Of a DNA stretch of 64,000 bases, positions 14,791 to 62,285 are shown piece by piece. A model generated the notes under the pieces. The model had not been told where the DNA came from. It saw only the letters and a list, made by a program, of their open reading frames with translations, and did not search any database. The stretch spans positions 62,001 through 126,000 of the IMG/VR virus record IMGVR_UViG_3300011113_000747; one strand, given 5' to 3'. The position numbers and the translations under genes were made by a program. This DNA is from a virus. The stretch's first letter is position 1. Every line of letters begins with the position of its first letter.

Positions 14791-15519
14791 ATGTCAAAAG
14801 TTGTACTAGCATTTAGTGGTGGAATGGACTCTTCAGTCTTGCTTCATATGGCAGCTGAAAAGTTTGATGAAGTGTATTGCTTATTCTTTGATTATGGTCA
14901 AAGACATAAGAAGGAACTTCAATGTGCAGAAAAGCAGCTGAAGAGTCTTAACGAAGGTGTTAAAATGTTGGTGATTGATACACCACTAAATGTTCTTGCT
15001 CCAACCTCATCTCTTACTAATCTGGATATCGATACCCCAGATGTAAGAGAGATGAGAGGTGAGGCTCAACCTAAGAGTTATGTACCATTTCGCAATATGC
15101 TGTTTATCTCATACCTTTTGTCATATGCAGAGGGAGTGGGTGCAGATGCTGTTTGGTATGGTGCAGCTCAAGTTGACTCATTAGCTGGCTATTGGGATGG
15201 AAGTCCAGAATTTTTAAAAGAGATCAATGATGTAGCTGCTTTGAACCGTGAACATCGTATTGTTGTTGAAGCACCGCTTCTTACAATGTCAAAAGCAGAT
15301 ATCATCTTAGAAGGTATTAGACTTGGAGTTAAGTTTAGTGATACTTGGACTTGTTATGCAGGTGAAGAAAAAGCAGATGCATATTCACCTTCCTCAAGTT
15401 TGAGATTACAAGGATTTGCTTCAGCTGGATATATCGATCCAATTCCTTACAAACAAGATTTAAGGAATGTTTGGAAGCAAAATAACTGTAAGAAGATTCC
15501 TTACGAAACTTATCTGTAA
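14791..15519 (+). CDS. queC: QueC-like 7-cyano-7-deazaguanine synthase with altered zinc site
   Basis: The product is 242 residues. QueC converts carboxy-deazaguanine to preQ0 with ATP and ammonia. The PP-loop AFSGGMDSS (about residues 7-15) and the family segment VPFRNMLFISYLLSYAEGVG (about 98-117) are clear. The usual zinc site is a Cys after TWS/TWT followed by C-x2-C-x2-C; here only the first (C188 in TWTCYAG) is present and the rest reads ADAYSPSSS, so three zinc ligands are missing. In phages such as 9g, QueC fused to a glutamine amidotransferase gives deoxyarchaeosine in DNA. A separate amidotransferase lies 1.1 kb downstream. Its stop overlaps a convergent minus-strand gene by 10 bp. 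Confidence 0.85.
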   Translation: MSKVVLAFSGGMDSSVLLHMAAEKFDEVYCLFFDYGQRHKKELQCAEKQLKSLNEGVKMLVIDTPLNVLAPTSSLTNLDIDTPDVREMRGEAQPKSYVPFRNMLFISYLLSYAEGVGADAVWYGAAQVDSLAGYWDGSPEFLKEINDVAALNREHRIVVEAPLLTMSKADIILEGIRLGVKFSDTWTCYAGEEKADAYSPSSSLRLQGFASAGYIDPIPYKQDLRNVWKQNNCKKIPYETYL

Positions 15520-17982: not shown

Positions 17983-19242
17983 TTATGCTAATATCTGCTC
18001 TATTGGTTCAGCCTCGTAAACCACCTCAACTGGTCTTAAATCTGGAGTCATCAACTTTGTTCTTGGTGATATACCAATTAAATGGAACATTGTAGCAGCA
18101 AATTGCTGCGGTGTAACTGGATCTGAGTCAGGCTCTGAAGCTAATGCATCAGACGTACCATAAGCATAACCTGCTTTAACACCACCACCAGCTAAAACTG
18201 TTGAGAATACCTTTGGCCAATGGTCTCTTCCGTTTGTAGCATTAATTTTAGGTGTACGACCAAACTCAGATGTCACCATTACAAGGGTTGAATCAAGTAA
18301 TCCACGTTGTTTTAAGTCATTAATAAAGGTTGCAAAGGCTTTATCAAAGTTAATCATATTAGATTCATATGCACCTTTAAGATTTGAGTGGTGATCCCAT
18401 GAACCATACGTTACTGTAACCATTCTTACACCTGCTTCAACAAGACGACGAGCTAGAAGTAAACGTTGACCAGCAGCATTACGGCCATATGCATCGCGAA
18501 CCACATCAGGCTCTTTAGAAAGCTCAAAAGATTCACGAGCTTGTGTTGATGATAACATTGAATATGCATCATTATAGAAAGAATCCATTGCTTTTACTGC
18601 ATCTACGTTTGATTCACGTGTTTTGAAGTAATCATCCACCGCTCCAAGCAATGCACGGCGACGATCTAATTGTTTATCGGAAACATCCTTAGGTGTATTG
18701 AGGTCTTTCACAACAAATCCCGGATCTTCTGGATTAGAACCTAAAGCAAACGGTCCATACTTGGTAGACAAGTAACCGGTGCCGTTTTCAGGTGCAAACT
18801 GATTAGGAACTAACACATAAGCAGGTAGATTGTTACGATTTCCTAATTCATGGCTAATAACACTACCAAATGATGGGTAGTTTAATGCTGGAGATGGTTT
18901 ATAACCAGTGAGCATGTTATGTGTTCCTCTTTCATGAGCTGCTTCACCGTGAGTCATTGAACGAATTACTGTAAGATTGTCAGAGACCTTTGCTGTTTCC
19001 TTTAGAAGTTCACCAAAATGAACACCATCTATCTTTGTCTTAACAGGAGCAAATGGTCCTCTATATTCTGGTGAGCCATTTACCTTATAATCCCACGAAT
19101 CTTGATGTGAAATACCACCAGGTAAGTAGATTTGAACTACTGATGTAGCTTTTGCAGGTGTTTGTGCTTGAGCTTTTAATAATTGTGGTAAACTTACACA
19201 ACCAGCAGCACCAATTCTTAGAATTTCACGTCTGTTATACAT
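17983..19242 (-). CDS. DUF1501 family exported protein, copy 1
   Basis: The product is 419 residues. DUF1501 (PF07394) proteins are sulfatase/alkaline-phosphatase-like and abundant in Planctomycetes and Verrucomicrobia; their substrate is unknown. The N-terminus has a twin-arginine signal (NRREILRIGAAG, about residues 3-14) followed by a hydrophobic stretch and an AQAQTPA-type cleavage region. Family motifs seen are YLPGGISHQDSWD (about 38-50), SMTHGEAAHERGTHNMLTGY (about 97-116), SWDHHSNLK and TSEFGRTPKIN followed by GRDHWPKVFS, then AGGGVKAGYAYG. The late box 5 nt upstream of the ATG shows it is a phage late gene. It is unlike its neighbours in origin and is probably host-derived. It differs considerably from copy 2 at 26660-27895. 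Confidence 0.92.
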   Translation of the reverse strand: MYNRREILRIGAAGCVSLPQLLKAQAQTPAKATSVVQIYLPGGISHQDSWDYKVNGSPEYRGPFAPVKTKIDGVHFGELLKETAKVSDNLTVIRSMTHGEAAHERGTHNMLTGYKPSPALNYPSFGSVISHELGNRNNLPAYVLVPNQFAPENGTGYLSTKYGPFALGSNPEDPGFVVKDLNTPKDVSDKQLDRRRALLGAVDDYFKTRESNVDAVKAMDSFYNDAYSMLSSTQARESFELSKEPDVVRDAYGRNAAGQRLLLARRLVEAGVRMVTVTYGSWDHHSNLKGAYESNMINFDKAFATFINDLKQRGLLDSTLVMVTSEFGRTPKINATNGRDHWPKVFSTVLAGGGVKAGYAYGTSDALASEPDSDPVTPQQFAATMFHLIGISPRTKLMTPDLRPVEVVYEAEPIEQILA

Positions 19243-19247
19243 ACTCT

Positions 19248-19255
19248 TATTTAAT
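19248..19255 (-). promoter_or_regulatory. late promoter box ATTAAATA
   Basis: Minus-strand late-type octamer 5 nt before the ATG at 19242 of the DUF1501 gene. Predicted leaderless late transcript. Confidence 0.6.
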
Positions 19256-22798: not shown

Positions 22799-23313
22799 GT
22801 CCAGAAGAAATTGAACAACAAAAAATGCTACTCAATTTAATGGGTAGCATTTATGGTGAAGCCAAAAAGATTGATCAAAATCTAGTTGGTACATCTCTTA
22901 ATTTGAGACCTCAAAGTGAGAACGTCAAGCAGTTGTTCGAGGGTGCGCTGAGATCTACTCAGCCACCCGCTCCACCACCACAACCGCAGATTGTGCATGT
23001 ACCACCACCTAATACTGTTAATTTACCGCATGTTGTACAACCAGCACAAGAATCTAAACCAATTCAATTAGTTGACAATTCAGATCTTGTATCTACATTA
23101 AAAGGTATTGAAAGCAATCTTGGTAAGTTGGTAGAATTATTCACACAATATGAAGTTAAAGTTAAAAAAGCAACAAATCGAAAAGTTTCTAGAGTCTCTG
23201 GCGAAGATAAACGACCAGTGCATAGTGAAAGTGGAGAAGGACAAGATATCGTCGATAGTAACATCGACGGACAACACGTTGATCCTTTACGCAACTCTAA
23301 ACCATACGAATGA
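22795..23313 (+). CDS. hypothetical protein overlapping gene 45
   Basis: The product is 172 residues, not recognised. It has an N-terminal helix (about residues 1-55), a Pro-rich linker with PPAPPPQPQIVHVPPP (about 57-72), a short helix GIESNLGKLVELF (about 105-117) and a charged C-terminus. Its last 55 codons share 164 bp with the start of the sliding clamp gene in another frame, so that stretch codes for two proteins. It is coupled to gene 32 by an ATGA overlap. Confidence 0.65.
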   Translation: MSPEEIEQQKMLLNLMGSIYGEAKKIDQNLVGTSLNLRPQSENVKQLFEGALRSTQPPAPPPQPQIVHVPPPNTVNLPHVVQPAQESKPIQLVDNSDLVSTLKGIESNLGKLVELFTQYEVKVKKATNRKVSRVSGEDKRPVHSESGEGQDIVDSNIDGQHVDPLRNSKPYE

Positions 23314-23860
23314 ATCCGAAAGATCCTTGTGTATACCGGATTTAAAAAAGCTTAATCGTGTTTTAGACTGTATTAGTAGTGATGAAATTGAACTCCAAGT
23401 TAATCAAAATAACTTGGAGTATAAGTCTCCAGAGATAAAGTTTAAGTATCACCTATTTGAAGATGATTTTATTACACCTCCTTCAATTAAACCAGATAAA
23501 ATTATGTCTTTCGAGACTGATTTTACCTTTGAACTAATGAAAGATGACTTTAGTAAAATCAATAAAGCTTCAACATTTACAACTGAAACGAATAAGATTT
23601 ATTTTTATTTAGAAGATGGGGTTGTTAAGTGTGAACTTACAGATAAAGCTAGACATAATACAGATTCATTTCAATTACAGGTTGGTAAAAATATAGCAGG
23701 AGCTGAATTGAAGAATTTACCTGTTAATTTTGATAATTTCAAACTTATCAATTCAGATAACGTTAAAGTGTCTATTAATAACAGATACGGCGTACTTATA
23801 TTTGATATTGATCAGGAGCCGCTTAAATTAAGATATATTTTATCATCACTTACTCAATAA
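23150..23860 (+). CDS. 45: sliding clamp gp45
   Basis: The product is 236 residues (T4 gp45 has 228). gp45 is the trimeric ring that tethers DNA polymerase and also activates late transcription with gp55. The N-terminal start MKLKLKKQQIEKFLESLAKI mirrors MKLSKDTTALLKNF of T4, followed by the repeating beta-alpha pattern of a clamp. Segments such as KIYFYLEDGVVKCELTDKA (about 149-167) and YGVLIFDIDQEPLKLRYIL (about 213-231) match the second domain. The clamp loader gp44 is 36 kb away in this window. The start lies within the preceding gene, an unusually long overlap. Confidence 0.78.
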   Translation: MKLKLKKQQIEKFLESLAKINDQCIVKVEKDKISSIVTSTDNTLILYATLNHTNESERSLCIPDLKKLNRVLDCISSDEIELQVNQNNLEYKSPEIKFKYHLFEDDFITPPSIKPDKIMSFETDFTFELMKDDFSKINKASTFTTETNKIYFYLEDGVVKCELTDKARHNTDSFQLQVGKNIAGAELKNLPVNFDNFKLINSDNVKVSINNRYGVLIFDIDQEPLKLRYILSSLTQ

Positions 23861-24586: not shown

Positions 24587-24851
24587 ACGTGAGCCAGAGC
24601 CTAAAGCAAAAATACCCTATGCAGTACAAAATGGTCACTATGTAGGTGAAATGTTTGTTTATATGGAGAAAGACGATAAAAACTTTTATTTTATCTCTAT
24701 ACCTAAAAATATTAACAGAGAAGTCCCTAAAGAGAAGTTTTTCTTCGGTATTGAAAACAAAATACTAGAAGAAGTTGAAAAACTACCCAATAACATTTAT
24801 AGTCTTTTAAAATCGCAATATTTCTACAACAAAAAGAGAAATACTAAATAA
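24567..24851 (+). CDS. hypothetical protein
   Basis: The product is 94 residues from the ATG at 24567; another in-frame ATG lies at 24558. Both overlap the end of the upstream gene. It has strand-rich NGHYVGEMFVYMEKDDKNFYF (about residues 20-40 split around Met) and a basic C-terminus ending in KKRNTK. Not recognised. Its stop codon overlaps the late promoter of the DUF1549 gene. Confidence 0.55.
   Translation: MVGKIFKREPEPKAKIPYAVQNGHYVGEMFVYMEKDDKNFYFISIPKNINREVPKEKFFFGIENKILEEVEKLPNNIYSLLKSQYFYNKKRNTK
24843..24850 (+). promoter_or_regulatory. late promoter box ACTAAATA
   Basis: Late octamer 13 nt before the ATG at 24864, overlapping the end of the upstream gene. It places the DUF1549/1553 gene in the phage late class. 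Confidence 0.65.
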
Positions 24852-24863
24852 TAAAAGACTATT

Positions 24864-26651
24864 ATGAAAAAACTCATCTTATTACTAGTAAGTATATGCA
24901 CCTTATCATTTGGTGCTACATTAGAACAGCTTAATAACTATAGTGGTTGGGTTGATTCTGTGTTACAAAAACAATATGTAGCTGCTAATGTTCAACCTCT
25001 TGGTAGGGTTAATGACGATACTTTTGTTCGTCGTGCATATCTTACAATTATTGGTAGAAACCCCACATACGAAGAGTATGAAATGTTCAATAAGGCGACT
25101 GATCCTAATAAAAGACAAGGATTAATTCAGTTTCTTATTAATCACCCTGGTTATACATCACATATGTTTAACTTTTGGGCTGAGTCGTTAAGATTGCGTG
25201 ATAGAATCAACACCACCAATAACTTCTCTGGTGGTCCTTATATTGATTATGTGAAGGATTCTATTGCAGCTAATAAATCTTATTCGAAATTTGTTACAGA
25301 TCTATTAACAGCAACAGGTTCTTATTACGATAATCCAGCTACTGGCTATTTCTATCGTGATTTAGGAATGCCTTTAGATAATCTAATTGGCACAGGTAAA
25401 GTGTTTATGGGTACTGATATTGGATGCGCACAATGCCATGATGATCCGTTCCAAGACTTCACTCAAATGCAGTTCTATAAGATGGCTGCTATGTTTAATC
25501 AGGTAGAACTTAGAGGTCGTGGAAGAGATAAAGACCCAGCTGTTGCAGCTCGTCAAAAAGCATTGAGAGAAGAAATTGATGCTTTGATTAAAGCTGATCC
25601 AATGAAGAATCGTGGATTGAACAATACAATTAATAACTTTGTTGCTGCTATGAGAGCTAATCTTGAAGTAGATGAAAAGCGCGAACTAAAACTACCACAT
25701 GATTACAACTACAAAGATGCAAAGCCATTTGATACAGTTGTACCTGCAGTTCTTTCTGGTAAAACAGAGATTAAAAACAAAGACGACATGAGAAAAGATG
25801 TTGTTGCTTGGTTGGTTAACCCAGAACACCCAACATTCACAAAGAACATTGTGAACCGTTACTGGAAATGGGTGTTCGGTAAGCATATCATCGAAGATTA
25901 TGATAATATCTATGATGATGAAAAGCTTAATAGTGAGCTTATGAATACACTTGCTGCAATTATGGTAAGTGTAAATTATGATACCAAACAGTTCATGTAT
26001 GTATTATACAATACCAAGTTATTTCAACGTGAACTCTACGATGGTGCATATTCAAATTCAGATAAGTTTGTGTTTATTGGACCAGTTAAACAACGTTTAA
26101 CTGCAGAGCAGATGTGGGATTCAGTTATTTCTATTGCTCTTGATAAACCAGATACATTCAAATTGACTTTCCAAGATGAATATGTAAAAGTAATGAGATA
26201 TTCATTAGAAGATCTCACTATTGATAAATTAAAAGCAAAGAATGAGGAATATCAGAAGATTATTCGTTCAAAATACGAGACTGCTCCAAAATATCGTAAT
26301 TACCCTCTTGTAAGAGCATCAGAGGTTAATGATAATGGACCCGTTAATACTATTCTTGAACAGCTTGGTCGTAGTGATCGTGAATTAATTGACACTTCAT
26401 CACGAGAAGGTTCAGTTACACAGGTTATTTCTTTCATGAACGGTCAATTAGCTGAAGTAGCAGTCAACAAAGAGACAAACCTTGCAAAGTTACTTGCAGG
26501 TAAGTCTCCAACCGATACCATTGATATTATCTTTAAGTCTGTATTAGTAAGAAGACCAACAATTGATGAAAAATCTAAGTTTGTTGGTGTGCAGGACGAT
26601 GATATCATCTGGGCACTAGTAAACAGTTCGGAGTTCAAATTCAATAAATAA
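24864..26651 (+). CDS. DUF1549/DUF1553 c-type haem-motif secreted protein
   Basis: The product is 595 residues. It begins with a Sec signal peptide (KKLILLLVSICTLSFGA, about residues 2-18). DUF1549 (PSCyt2) follows, including FVRRAYLTIIGRNPTYEEYE and the conserved CAQCHDDPF at residues 188-196, where C-x-x-C-H is a covalent haem c site. DUF1553 (PSD1) covers about 300-580, with WLVNPEHPTFTKNIVNRYWK (about 313-332) and a later AEQMWDSV segment. In PVC bacteria these proteins are nearly always encoded next to a DUF1501 gene, as here, and are usually longer because of an added PSCyt1 domain. The function is unknown even in bacteria. A late box precedes it. It is flanked on both sides by phage replication genes, so it belongs to the phage genome. 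Confidence 0.93.
   Translation: MKKLILLLVSICTLSFGATLEQLNNYSGWVDSVLQKQYVAANVQPLGRVNDDTFVRRAYLTIIGRNPTYEEYEMFNKATDPNKRQGLIQFLINHPGYTSHMFNFWAESLRLRDRINTTNNFSGGPYIDYVKDSIAANKSYSKFVTDLLTATGSYYDNPATGYFYRDLGMPLDNLIGTGKVFMGTDIGCAQCHDDPFQDFTQMQFYKMAAMFNQVELRGRGRDKDPAVAARQKALREEIDALIKADPMKNRGLNNTINNFVAAMRANLEVDEKRELKLPHDYNYKDAKPFDTVVPAVLSGKTEIKNKDDMRKDVVAWLVNPEHPTFTKNIVNRYWKWVFGKHIIEDYDNIYDDEKLNSELMNTLAAIMVSVNYDTKQFMYVLYNTKLFQRELYDGAYSNSDKFVFIGPVKQRLTAEQMWDSVISIALDKPDTFKLTFQDEYVKVMRYSLEDLTIDKLKAKNEEYQKIIRSKYETAPKYRNYPLVRASEVNDNGPVNTILEQLGRSDRELIDTSSREGSVTQVISFMNGQLAEVAVNKETNLAKLLAGKSPTDTIDIIFKSVLVRRPTIDEKSKFVGVQDDDIIWALVNSSEFKFNK
26643..26650 (+). promoter_or_regulatory. late promoter box AATAAATA
   Basis: Late octamer 9 nt before the ATG at 26660; it overlaps the last codons and stop of the DUF1549/1553 gene. 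Confidence 0.6.
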
Positions 26652-26659
26652 TAAAAGCC

Positions 26660-27895
26660 ATGAATAACTTAACAAGACGTAATTTCGTGCTTAATCTTGC
26701 TTCTGCAGGTTTAGGTGTAACCGTTCTACCTCACGTTGCAGCTGCTCCAGCTAGCAAAAAAGCAGAACATATCATTTATTTGTTTATGAATGGTGGTATG
26801 AGTCATTTAGATACATTTGATCCTAAAACTAATGCAGAAGTTAAGGGTGAATTTAATTCTATTACCACAAATGCAGGTTATGAAATCTCAGAACACCTAC
26901 CTTTGATGGCTAAGCATGGTGATAAGATGGCAGTTGTTCGTTCCATGATGGTTACAACAGGTGATCACGCTGGAGCGCAATATTTACAAAGAACTTCATT
27001 CAAGAAGATTGGTACAATTGTACACCCTAACATGGGAGCTTGGATGTGTCATTATACTGAAGATGGAAAACCAAAAGTCATTCCACAAAACGTATTAATC
27101 GGTGGTGGAGCTGATCATCCTGGTGCTGGTTGGATGCCTAAGAAGTATTCTCCTATTCCAGTTGCAGATCCAATGAGAGGTCTTGATAATACTAAGCTTA
27201 AGAATACAGCAGAGTTCGCAAAGAGGGTGCAAATCCTAGAAAAGCTTGAAAAAGATGCAAATAAGATTATTAACCCAGCTCAAAAGTCATATGCTGAGTT
27301 TTATGATCAAACAATCCGTCTTCTTAACTCTAATGAGCTTGATGTATTTGATCTTTCTAAGGTAGATCAAGCAACAAGAGACAAATATGGTAATAATCGT
27401 TTTGGTCAAGGGGTTTGCTTAGCAAAACGCTTGATTGAGCAAGGTAAATGTAAGTTCATTGAAGTTTCTGATGGTGGTTGGGATACACACGTTAATAACT
27501 TTGAGTCTCTTGAAACCAAACTTGGTATTCTTGATCAAGCAGTCAACGCACTTATCGAAGACCTTAAAGCATCAGGTCTTTACGATAAGACCCTTATCGT
27601 AATTGCAACAGACTTCGGTAGAACACCAAATATTAACATTAATAATGGTAGGGATCACCATCCAGGTGCTTTCTGCGGTGTTCTTATCGGAGCAGGCATT
27701 AAAGGTGGTCAAGCTTATGGTAAATCTGATGATAAAGGTATGAAAGCTGTTGAAAACATTGTAAGTCCATCTGATTTCAATGCTACTATTGCAGCTGCTG
27801 CCGGGTTACCAATTGATGAAATTGTAATGTCACCTGAAAATCGACCATTCAAGATCGCAGATAAAGGTAAACCTATTCAAGCACTTTTAGCTTGA
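26660..27895 (+). CDS. DUF1501 family exported protein, copy 2
   Basis: The product is 411 residues. A twin-arginine signal (LTRRNFVLNLASAG, about residues 4-17) and an AAAPAS cleavage region precede the sulfatase-like DUF1501 domain. Motifs are YLFMNGGMSHLDTFDPK (about 38-54), SMMVTTGDHAGAQYL (about 95-109), DGGWDTHVN (about 273) and ATDFGRTPN followed by GRDHHPGAFCGVLIGAG and GGQAYG. The metal-site segment is DHH instead of the DHW of copy 1. It follows the DUF1549/1553 gene by 8 nt, which reproduces the standard bacterial gene pair, and has its own late box. The predicted location is the host periplasm or the surface of released particles; which is not known. Confidence 0.93.
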   Translation: MNNLTRRNFVLNLASAGLGVTVLPHVAAAPASKKAEHIIYLFMNGGMSHLDTFDPKTNAEVKGEFNSITTNAGYEISEHLPLMAKHGDKMAVVRSMMVTTGDHAGAQYLQRTSFKKIGTIVHPNMGAWMCHYTEDGKPKVIPQNVLIGGGADHPGAGWMPKKYSPIPVADPMRGLDNTKLKNTAEFAKRVQILEKLEKDANKIINPAQKSYAEFYDQTIRLLNSNELDVFDLSKVDQATRDKYGNNRFGQGVCLAKRLIEQGKCKFIEVSDGGWDTHVNNFESLETKLGILDQAVNALIEDLKASGLYDKTLIVIATDFGRTPNININNGRDHHPGAFCGVLIGAGIKGGQAYGKSDDKGMKAVENIVSPSDFNATIAAAAGLPIDEIVMSPENRPFKIADKGKPIQALLA

Positions 27896-61701: not shown

Positions 61702-62285
61702 TTTTTTAACCCCTTTAAATATTCTTTAGTATAAGAATTTACCTGCATTGATTTTGTAGCAGGCTTACTTGAAAGAGTAACATTAGTATTACGAAGTTTT
61801 CTATCACCAAAACCAAGCTTACCATTACCCTTTACATCAGAGTTATTAACGTAAGCTTCTTCATCTGATTCGAGCTCTTCTGGCTTGATATTAACCTTAT
61901 GCTTAATTTCACGTTCAGGTGAAAGTGGGTTGAGATTTGGATATACATCATCTCTAACTAAAAGTGACGGGCAAATGGAAAGATAATCACTATAACGACC
62001 TCCAGCTTGGTCTAAGGCAATATCAACAACGAAATCAAATCCAGAGCTTTGTGGATTCGCTGGGTTAGCATTAGGTTTATAGGATTTAACATTAACAATA
62101 CGCATGTTAAGACCTGAGCTAATCATGTTATCAATAATTGTTTTAATATCATCATTAAGCTCTTTATATGCTTCTTTAGACTTAAAGCCGTCGCTAAACT
62201 TCACGTAATCTCCAACGAGAAAACCACCATTACGCTGATATCTTTGATATACAGATTCAAAAAGCTTGATAAATTTCTTTTCCAT
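61698..62285 (-). CDS. conserved late protein with capsid-targeting-like N-terminus
   Basis: The product is 195 residues. MEKKFIKLFESVYQRYQ has the F-x-x-L-F-E-S pattern. It is followed by GGFLVGDYVKFSDGFKSKEA (about residues 20-39), a small beta segment, a central FDFVVDIALDQAGGRYSDYL region (about 84-103) and a basic C-terminus. I have the impression that similar proteins occur in marine T4-like phages, but no function is known to me. The late box lies 8 nt upstream. Confidence 0.68.
   Translation of the reverse strand: MEKKFIKLFESVYQRYQRNGGFLVGDYVKFSDGFKSKEAYKELNDDIKTIIDNMISSGLNMRIVNVKSYKPNANPANPQSSGFDFVVDIALDQAGGRYSDYLSICPSLLVRDDVYPNLNPLSPEREIKHKVNIKPEELESDEEAYVNNSDVKGNGKLGFGDRKLRNTNVTLSSKPATKSMQVNSYTKEYLKGLKK

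Follow-up and report, generated by a model that had tools for sequence, protein, structure and literature searches.

A 64,000-nt stretch of viral DNA (positions 62,001–126,000 of the 184,542-bp IMG/VR record IMGVR_UViG_3300011113_000747; hereafter the window) carries three genes of protein families that are otherwise hallmarks of the Planctomycetes–Verrucomicrobia–Chlamydiae (PVC) bacteria. Gene A (24864..26651, + strand) codes for a PSCyt2/PSD1 protein (DUF1549/DUF1553), and genes B (26660..27895, + strand) and C (17983..19242, − strand) code for DUF1501 proteins. That all three truly belong to the phage, are expressed late and stem from PVC bacteria is almost certain. The best reading of their role, which we offer tentatively, is that they are late exported enzymes that alter the host envelope and aid lysis and release from a PVC host, most likely a member of the Verrucomicrobiota. 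A family search of the whole record returned one PSCyt2 gene and two DUF1501 genes, B and C; the latter was absent from the preliminary description of the window, which had noted the A-B pair. To our knowledge, PSCyt and DUF1501 proteins, present in many copies in PVC genomes, are an unexplained hallmark of these bacteria without a known function. PSCyt2/PSD1 alone is found in 41 copies in Rhodopirellula baltica.

Predicted exported proteins with late-promoter boxes

The preliminary description had recognized an exported DUF1549/DUF1553-type protein with the haem motif C188-x-x-C-H, followed 8 nt later by a DUF1501 protein with a twin-arginine translocation (Tat) signal, and both were recovered here. 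The 595-aa protein A matches PF07583 (E = 1.9e-35; 123.2 bits against a cut-off of 29.8) and PF07587 (E = 1.1e-26; 94.2 bits against 28.5), has a secretory (Sec)-type N-terminus, as judged by inspection, and contains a single CAQCH haem-attachment motif (C188-A-Q-C-H192; 25425..25439, + strand). All 41 full-length viral A proteins examined carry CAQCH, and all 75 bacterial homologues carry a CxxCH motif. After a gap of 8 nt follows gene B, whose 411-aa product matches positions 1–390 of the PF07394 profile above the cut-off (E = 4.5e-98, 329.4 bits) and bears the twin arginines R6-R7 (26675..26680, + strand) within the N-terminal motif TRRNFVL. Protein C, a second, unpaired twin-arginine DUF1501 protein of 419 aa, spans the same 390 profile positions of PF07394 (363.3 bits) and is 34% identical to B. 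Across DUF1501 proteins, R6 is kept in 212 and R7 in 211 of 214 sequences. Gene C holds the same genomic place in related phages, as does an adjoining glycosyltransferase gene (PF13712; 17297-17950).

Each of the three genes is preceded by a late-promoter box. That of A, ACTAAATA, lies at −21 (24843..24850, + strand), that of B, AATAAATA, at −17 (26643..26650, + strand), where it overlaps the final codons of A, and that of C, ATTAAATA, at −13 (19248..19255, − strand). TAAATA lies upstream of 64 of the 266 open reading frames (ORFs) of the phage, compared with an expectation of 9.2 derived from random segments of its genome; structural genes (gp18, gp19, portal, gp21) usually have it close to position −13. 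Unlike A, B and C, the genes for gp32, a putative gp45, the exonuclease, the primase and gp41 have no late box. The box of A recurs, mostly as TATAAATA at −13, in phages with an A protein only ~36% identical to that of the window; recurrence of the B box in relatives is inconsistent. As the B box does not always recur and overlaps the end of A, the boxes of A and C are the stronger evidence. In the T4-like setting of the record, which has a gp23-type capsid protein and gp32, the predicted late expression of A, B and C is well supported by these promoter boxes. The late use proposed in the preliminary description, which had placed a box before A and before B, is supported by boxes on all three genes, by conservation of the A box in divergent relatives and by the position of the genes, in another phage lineage, within an operon of late head genes.

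Export motifs and late boxes together disfavour two possible roles. It has been argued before that late timing speaks against a simple metabolic boost early in infection, and we agree. Genome context has linked bacterial PSCyt genes, which often have sulfatase genes nearby, to carbohydrate use (PMC5615132), and an auxiliary metabolic function, in which sugar, sulfate or phosphate freed from glycans, or periplasmic redox, feeds phage production, would fit this. However, late expression leaves little time for such a benefit, and no conserved transport or catabolic partner gene adjoins the pair, B being the sole constant neighbour in the 53 viral A loci compared; we regard this role as quite improbable. 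The second is that of a particle component, such as a tail or decoration protein by which surface glycan is digested on entry. The late boxes and the head-gene neighbours in one lineage are compatible with it, but Sec- and Tat-type N-termini would remove the proteins from the cytoplasm, where particles are assembled, and the conservation of the twin arginines across DUF1501 argues in the same direction, making a particle role highly improbable.

Occurrence, origin and exchange between phages

The pair is present in numerous other viral sequences. With single proteins as queries, IMG/VR scans returned 25 B loci and 19 A loci; with alignments as queries, they returned 112 (B), 161 (C) and 38 (A) loci, counts that overlap and include several loci from one contig. 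About 50 distinct viral A genes can be recognized in IMG/VR, nearly all with B after them and in several genome contexts. Neither A nor B matched any INPHARED phage or PHROGs family, and a literature search for PSCyt/DUF1501 families in phages found only a passing domain label on a 61-aa Pseudomonas phage ORF. Labels such as L003, L024 and L027 are used below for IMG/VR viral loci or contigs, and G000 for the window phage's own record. The replication-region context of the window is common to 11 loci. In the L003 lineage, C and, further on, A-B precede genes for a tail-sheath-stabilizer-like protein, the portal, a gp21-type protease and a gp23-type capsid protein, so that the pair lies inside a late gp20-gp23 head operon; between C and A in this lineage is an ORF (L003:7385-8203) that weakly matches FMN reductase (E 6.5e-5, narrowly missing the cut-off). 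A gp23-type capsid gene is present in 12 of the 31 records searched, the remainder being not proven T4-like and some of them perhaps fragments.

The preliminary description had named an assembly chimera, or absence of the pair from related phages, as findings that would overturn it. The occurrence of the pair in IMG/VR, including T4-type contexts, answers the second objection, and the first is rejected, together with host contamination, because independent contigs share the same order and context. That the families are otherwise PVC hallmarks and lack an INPHARED match could be taken to favour such an artefact, but the genes also have phage-like GC content at third codon positions (0.21–0.26, versus 0.25–0.31 for replication genes), carry late boxes, fall into all-viral clades and, for proteins of the B family, reach a best bacterial identity of ~47%, leaving this explanation a negligible probability.

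The preliminary description had also called for a phylogeny of these proteins against PVC bacteria. The FastTree trees obtained have long branches and no bootstrap and are taken as support, not proof. A tree of 100 rows gathers 40 of the 41 viral A proteins into a single clade (SH-aLRT 95) nested among Verrucomicrobiota. The exception is L148, which is catalogued as a viral contig; both its A and its B fall with Opitutia, and it is either bacterial or a separate acquisition. The B protein of the window belongs to a 33-row all-viral clade (support 96), which holds most viral B proteins and is also nested among Verrucomicrobiota; the main sub-branches of this clade mirror those of A, suggesting that phages probably acquired the A-B pair a single time and that its two genes have moved as one. 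Window C falls into a 14-row viral clade that is sister (95) to 11 Verrucomicrobiota sequences. Further viral DUF1501 groups are placed elsewhere in the tree, including beside Pirellulaceae, and DUF1501 genes have therefore been acquired by phages more than once. These placements support the PVC host proposed earlier, most likely a member of the Verrucomicrobiota as judged from gene phylogeny.

Movement between phages is seen in the contrast between head proteins and the three genes. The head proteins compared between the window phage and L003 are 44–71% identical, as against 86% for A, 92% for B and 81% for C; the opposite pattern holds for L003 and L008, with 91% identity for gp23 and 79% for A. 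This contrast points to horizontal exchange of A, B and C between phage lineages. The genes are under purifying selection, with dN/dS values of ~0.04–0.12 where synonymous change is unsaturated, similar to replication genes.

The phage genes closely resemble the PSCyt2/PSD1 and DUF1501 pairs of Verrucomicrobiota and Planctomycetota in their domains, the A-then-B order, their closeness, CxxCH, export signals and conserved DUF1501 residues. Of the 80 nearest bacterial DUF1501 loci, 73 have an A-like gene in the flank, mostly directly upstream. Unlike the bacterial pairs, the phage forms constitute a separate clade with T4-type late boxes, showed no bacterial B-family homologue above the identity given above in the searches made, and have a mostly shorter A protein (571–615 aa and one of 660 aa, compared with a bacterial median of 656 aa). 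Viral C is 57–63% identical to the C-type DUF1501 proteins of Prosthecobacter and related Verrucomicrobiota. The bacterial C-type gene is, however, often followed by one for an exported PPC-domain protein, and in one annotated case by a PPC-domain protein and then a PSCyt1-PSCyt2-PSD1 protein, whereas C of the window phage stands alone.

Predicted chemistry and a proposed role at host release

Residues H103 (26966-26968), D275 and H277 of the D275-T-H277 segment (27482..27490), and D332-H333 (27653-27658; all + strand) of protein B are conserved in 215–218 of 218 viral and bacterial DUF1501 sequences and may form a metal site. In a Foldseek search with the AlphaFold model of B, a weak model (pLDDT 60), the top 50 matches were of the sulfatase/LtaS type (best LtaS E 1.4e-4), with low TM-scores of 0.2–0.35. 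A sequence search of the PDB with B gave weak matches of the same type only, and DUF1501 has weak Sulfatase and Phosphodiest Pfam matches. DUF1501 thus likely belongs to the alkaline-phosphatase superfamily (S1 sulfatases, LtaS, type I phosphodiesterases), judging from fold and sequence matches, although the fold matches come from that low-confidence model. For A, a PDB sequence search found nothing, and its moderate model (pLDDT 78) gave no significant PDB match. Recurrent weak matches of this model to phycobilisome-linker domains, and of the sequence to DUF4214 (E 0.0097), hint that A may share a helical linker module with these proteins.

For the window phage we infer substrate, chemistry, haem role and lysis function as follows. 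Protein A would be exported through Sec and bind one c-type haem in the periplasm, whereas B and C would be exported folded through Tat and act as hydrolases of the alkaline-phosphatase/sulfatase superfamily. Working alongside the holin and endolysins, the three would jointly remove or loosen surface glycan that carries sulfate or phosphate groups, or outer-membrane material, and might additionally prevent progeny phage from binding again to the cell as it dies.

An envelope role at release is the best reading because of the lysis-gene neighbourhood in related phages. In the L024/L225-L244 lineage, as in phage lysis cassettes (holin, endolysin, spanin), A-B is flanked by Amidase_2 and/or Phage_lysozyme genes at distances of 6 bp to ~2 kb, holin-like ORFs with one predicted transmembrane segment are close by, and a late box precedes A. 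In L015-L017, an amidase gene is located 1.1 kb past B, and in the L003 lineage a weakly holin-like ORF immediately precedes C. Among the options raised in the preliminary description (envelope remodelling, glycan access, superinfection exclusion and particle components), envelope modification is therefore favoured by the endolysin and holin-like neighbours in other lineages, while the particle option is set back by the export signals.

Several points weigh against this reading. We know of no biochemistry for the PSCyt2/PSD1 or DUF1501 families, the model of B is of low confidence, and the assignments as holin-like are weak, falling short of the cut-off with E 0.004 and 0.07. In the window phage itself, A-B is located among replication genes, apart from its own amidase gene (G000 148671-149447) and holin-like ORF, both of which have late boxes and are sited elsewhere in the genome. 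Moreover, searches of Pfam and PHROGs place neither A nor B in a holin, endolysin or spanin family, a difference from lysis-cassette genes. As the genome of the window phage has no endolysin or holin gene adjacent to the pair, A-B is not classed here as part of a lysis cassette, and is only possibly similar to one in action. Finally, the 203,774-bp phage contig L027 retains C but has A-B only as a remnant, so that the pair is dispensable there; in this remnant (L027:12384-12782) the start of A stands beside residues 288-411 of B in an open frame of 136 aa.

Alternatively, the exported proteins could alter a receptor glycan or surface protein and block adsorption of other phages or of progeny. 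Export combined with phage late boxes suits such superinfection exclusion or receptor masking, as does the sharing of the genes by T4-like lineages, which would be competitors for hosts. However, genes for exclusion are typically early, whereas late boxes precede A, B and C, and other lineages have lysis genes next to the pair; we consider exclusion unlikely. According to papers that cite Kamneva et al. 2012 (PMC4960237, PMC4452313), DUF1501 clusters occur preferentially in compartmentalized PVC species, from which a reorganization of invaginated host membrane or periplasm by the DUF1501 module for phage assembly could be proposed. This link is correlative, as are all published hints on the bacterial module (intracellular membranes, carbohydrate metabolism, redox), and we give remodelling for assembly very little weight. 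An extended form of the envelope reading is possible but doubtful. In it, the haem protein and the superfamily hydrolase would form a new class of envelope-disruption factor, acquired together from Verrucomicrobiota, retained by many T4-like phages and serving specifically to break or remodel the PVC envelope at lysis.

Neighbouring genes and wider meaning

The pair had been placed between the gene 45 region and an RNase H gene. Downstream of B is indeed a 5'-3' exonuclease gene of the RNase H/FEN type (PF02739, phrog_107), but the ORF labelled putative gp45 (23150-23860) has no Pfam or PHROG match at 1e-3. A QueC gene (14791-15519; PF06508, E 2.1e-52) suggests queuosine-type metabolism or deazaguanine DNA modification, and a tRNA and Rfam scan of the window found none, and hence no host hint. 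Among other viral contigs, L185, L193 and L198 each hold a group of three or four DUF1501 genes lying near one another but gave no PSCyt2 match. A contig with DUF1501 genes carries, by eye, a prepilin-like ORF of a type common in Planctomycetes (L205:3239-4219), and a 184,465-bp contig has a papain-family protease gene (PF00112; L171:2520-3554) a few kb from two adjacent DUF1501 genes.

Since phages rarely keep genes they do not need, the compact, late and conserved phage copy narrows the search for the module's role to a benefit towards the close of infection and provides a small, testable version of it. The pair also marks a group of T4-like viruses whose hosts have few known phages. If true, the envelope-disruption reading would provide the first functional handle on the DUF1501/PSCyt module of PVC bacteria.
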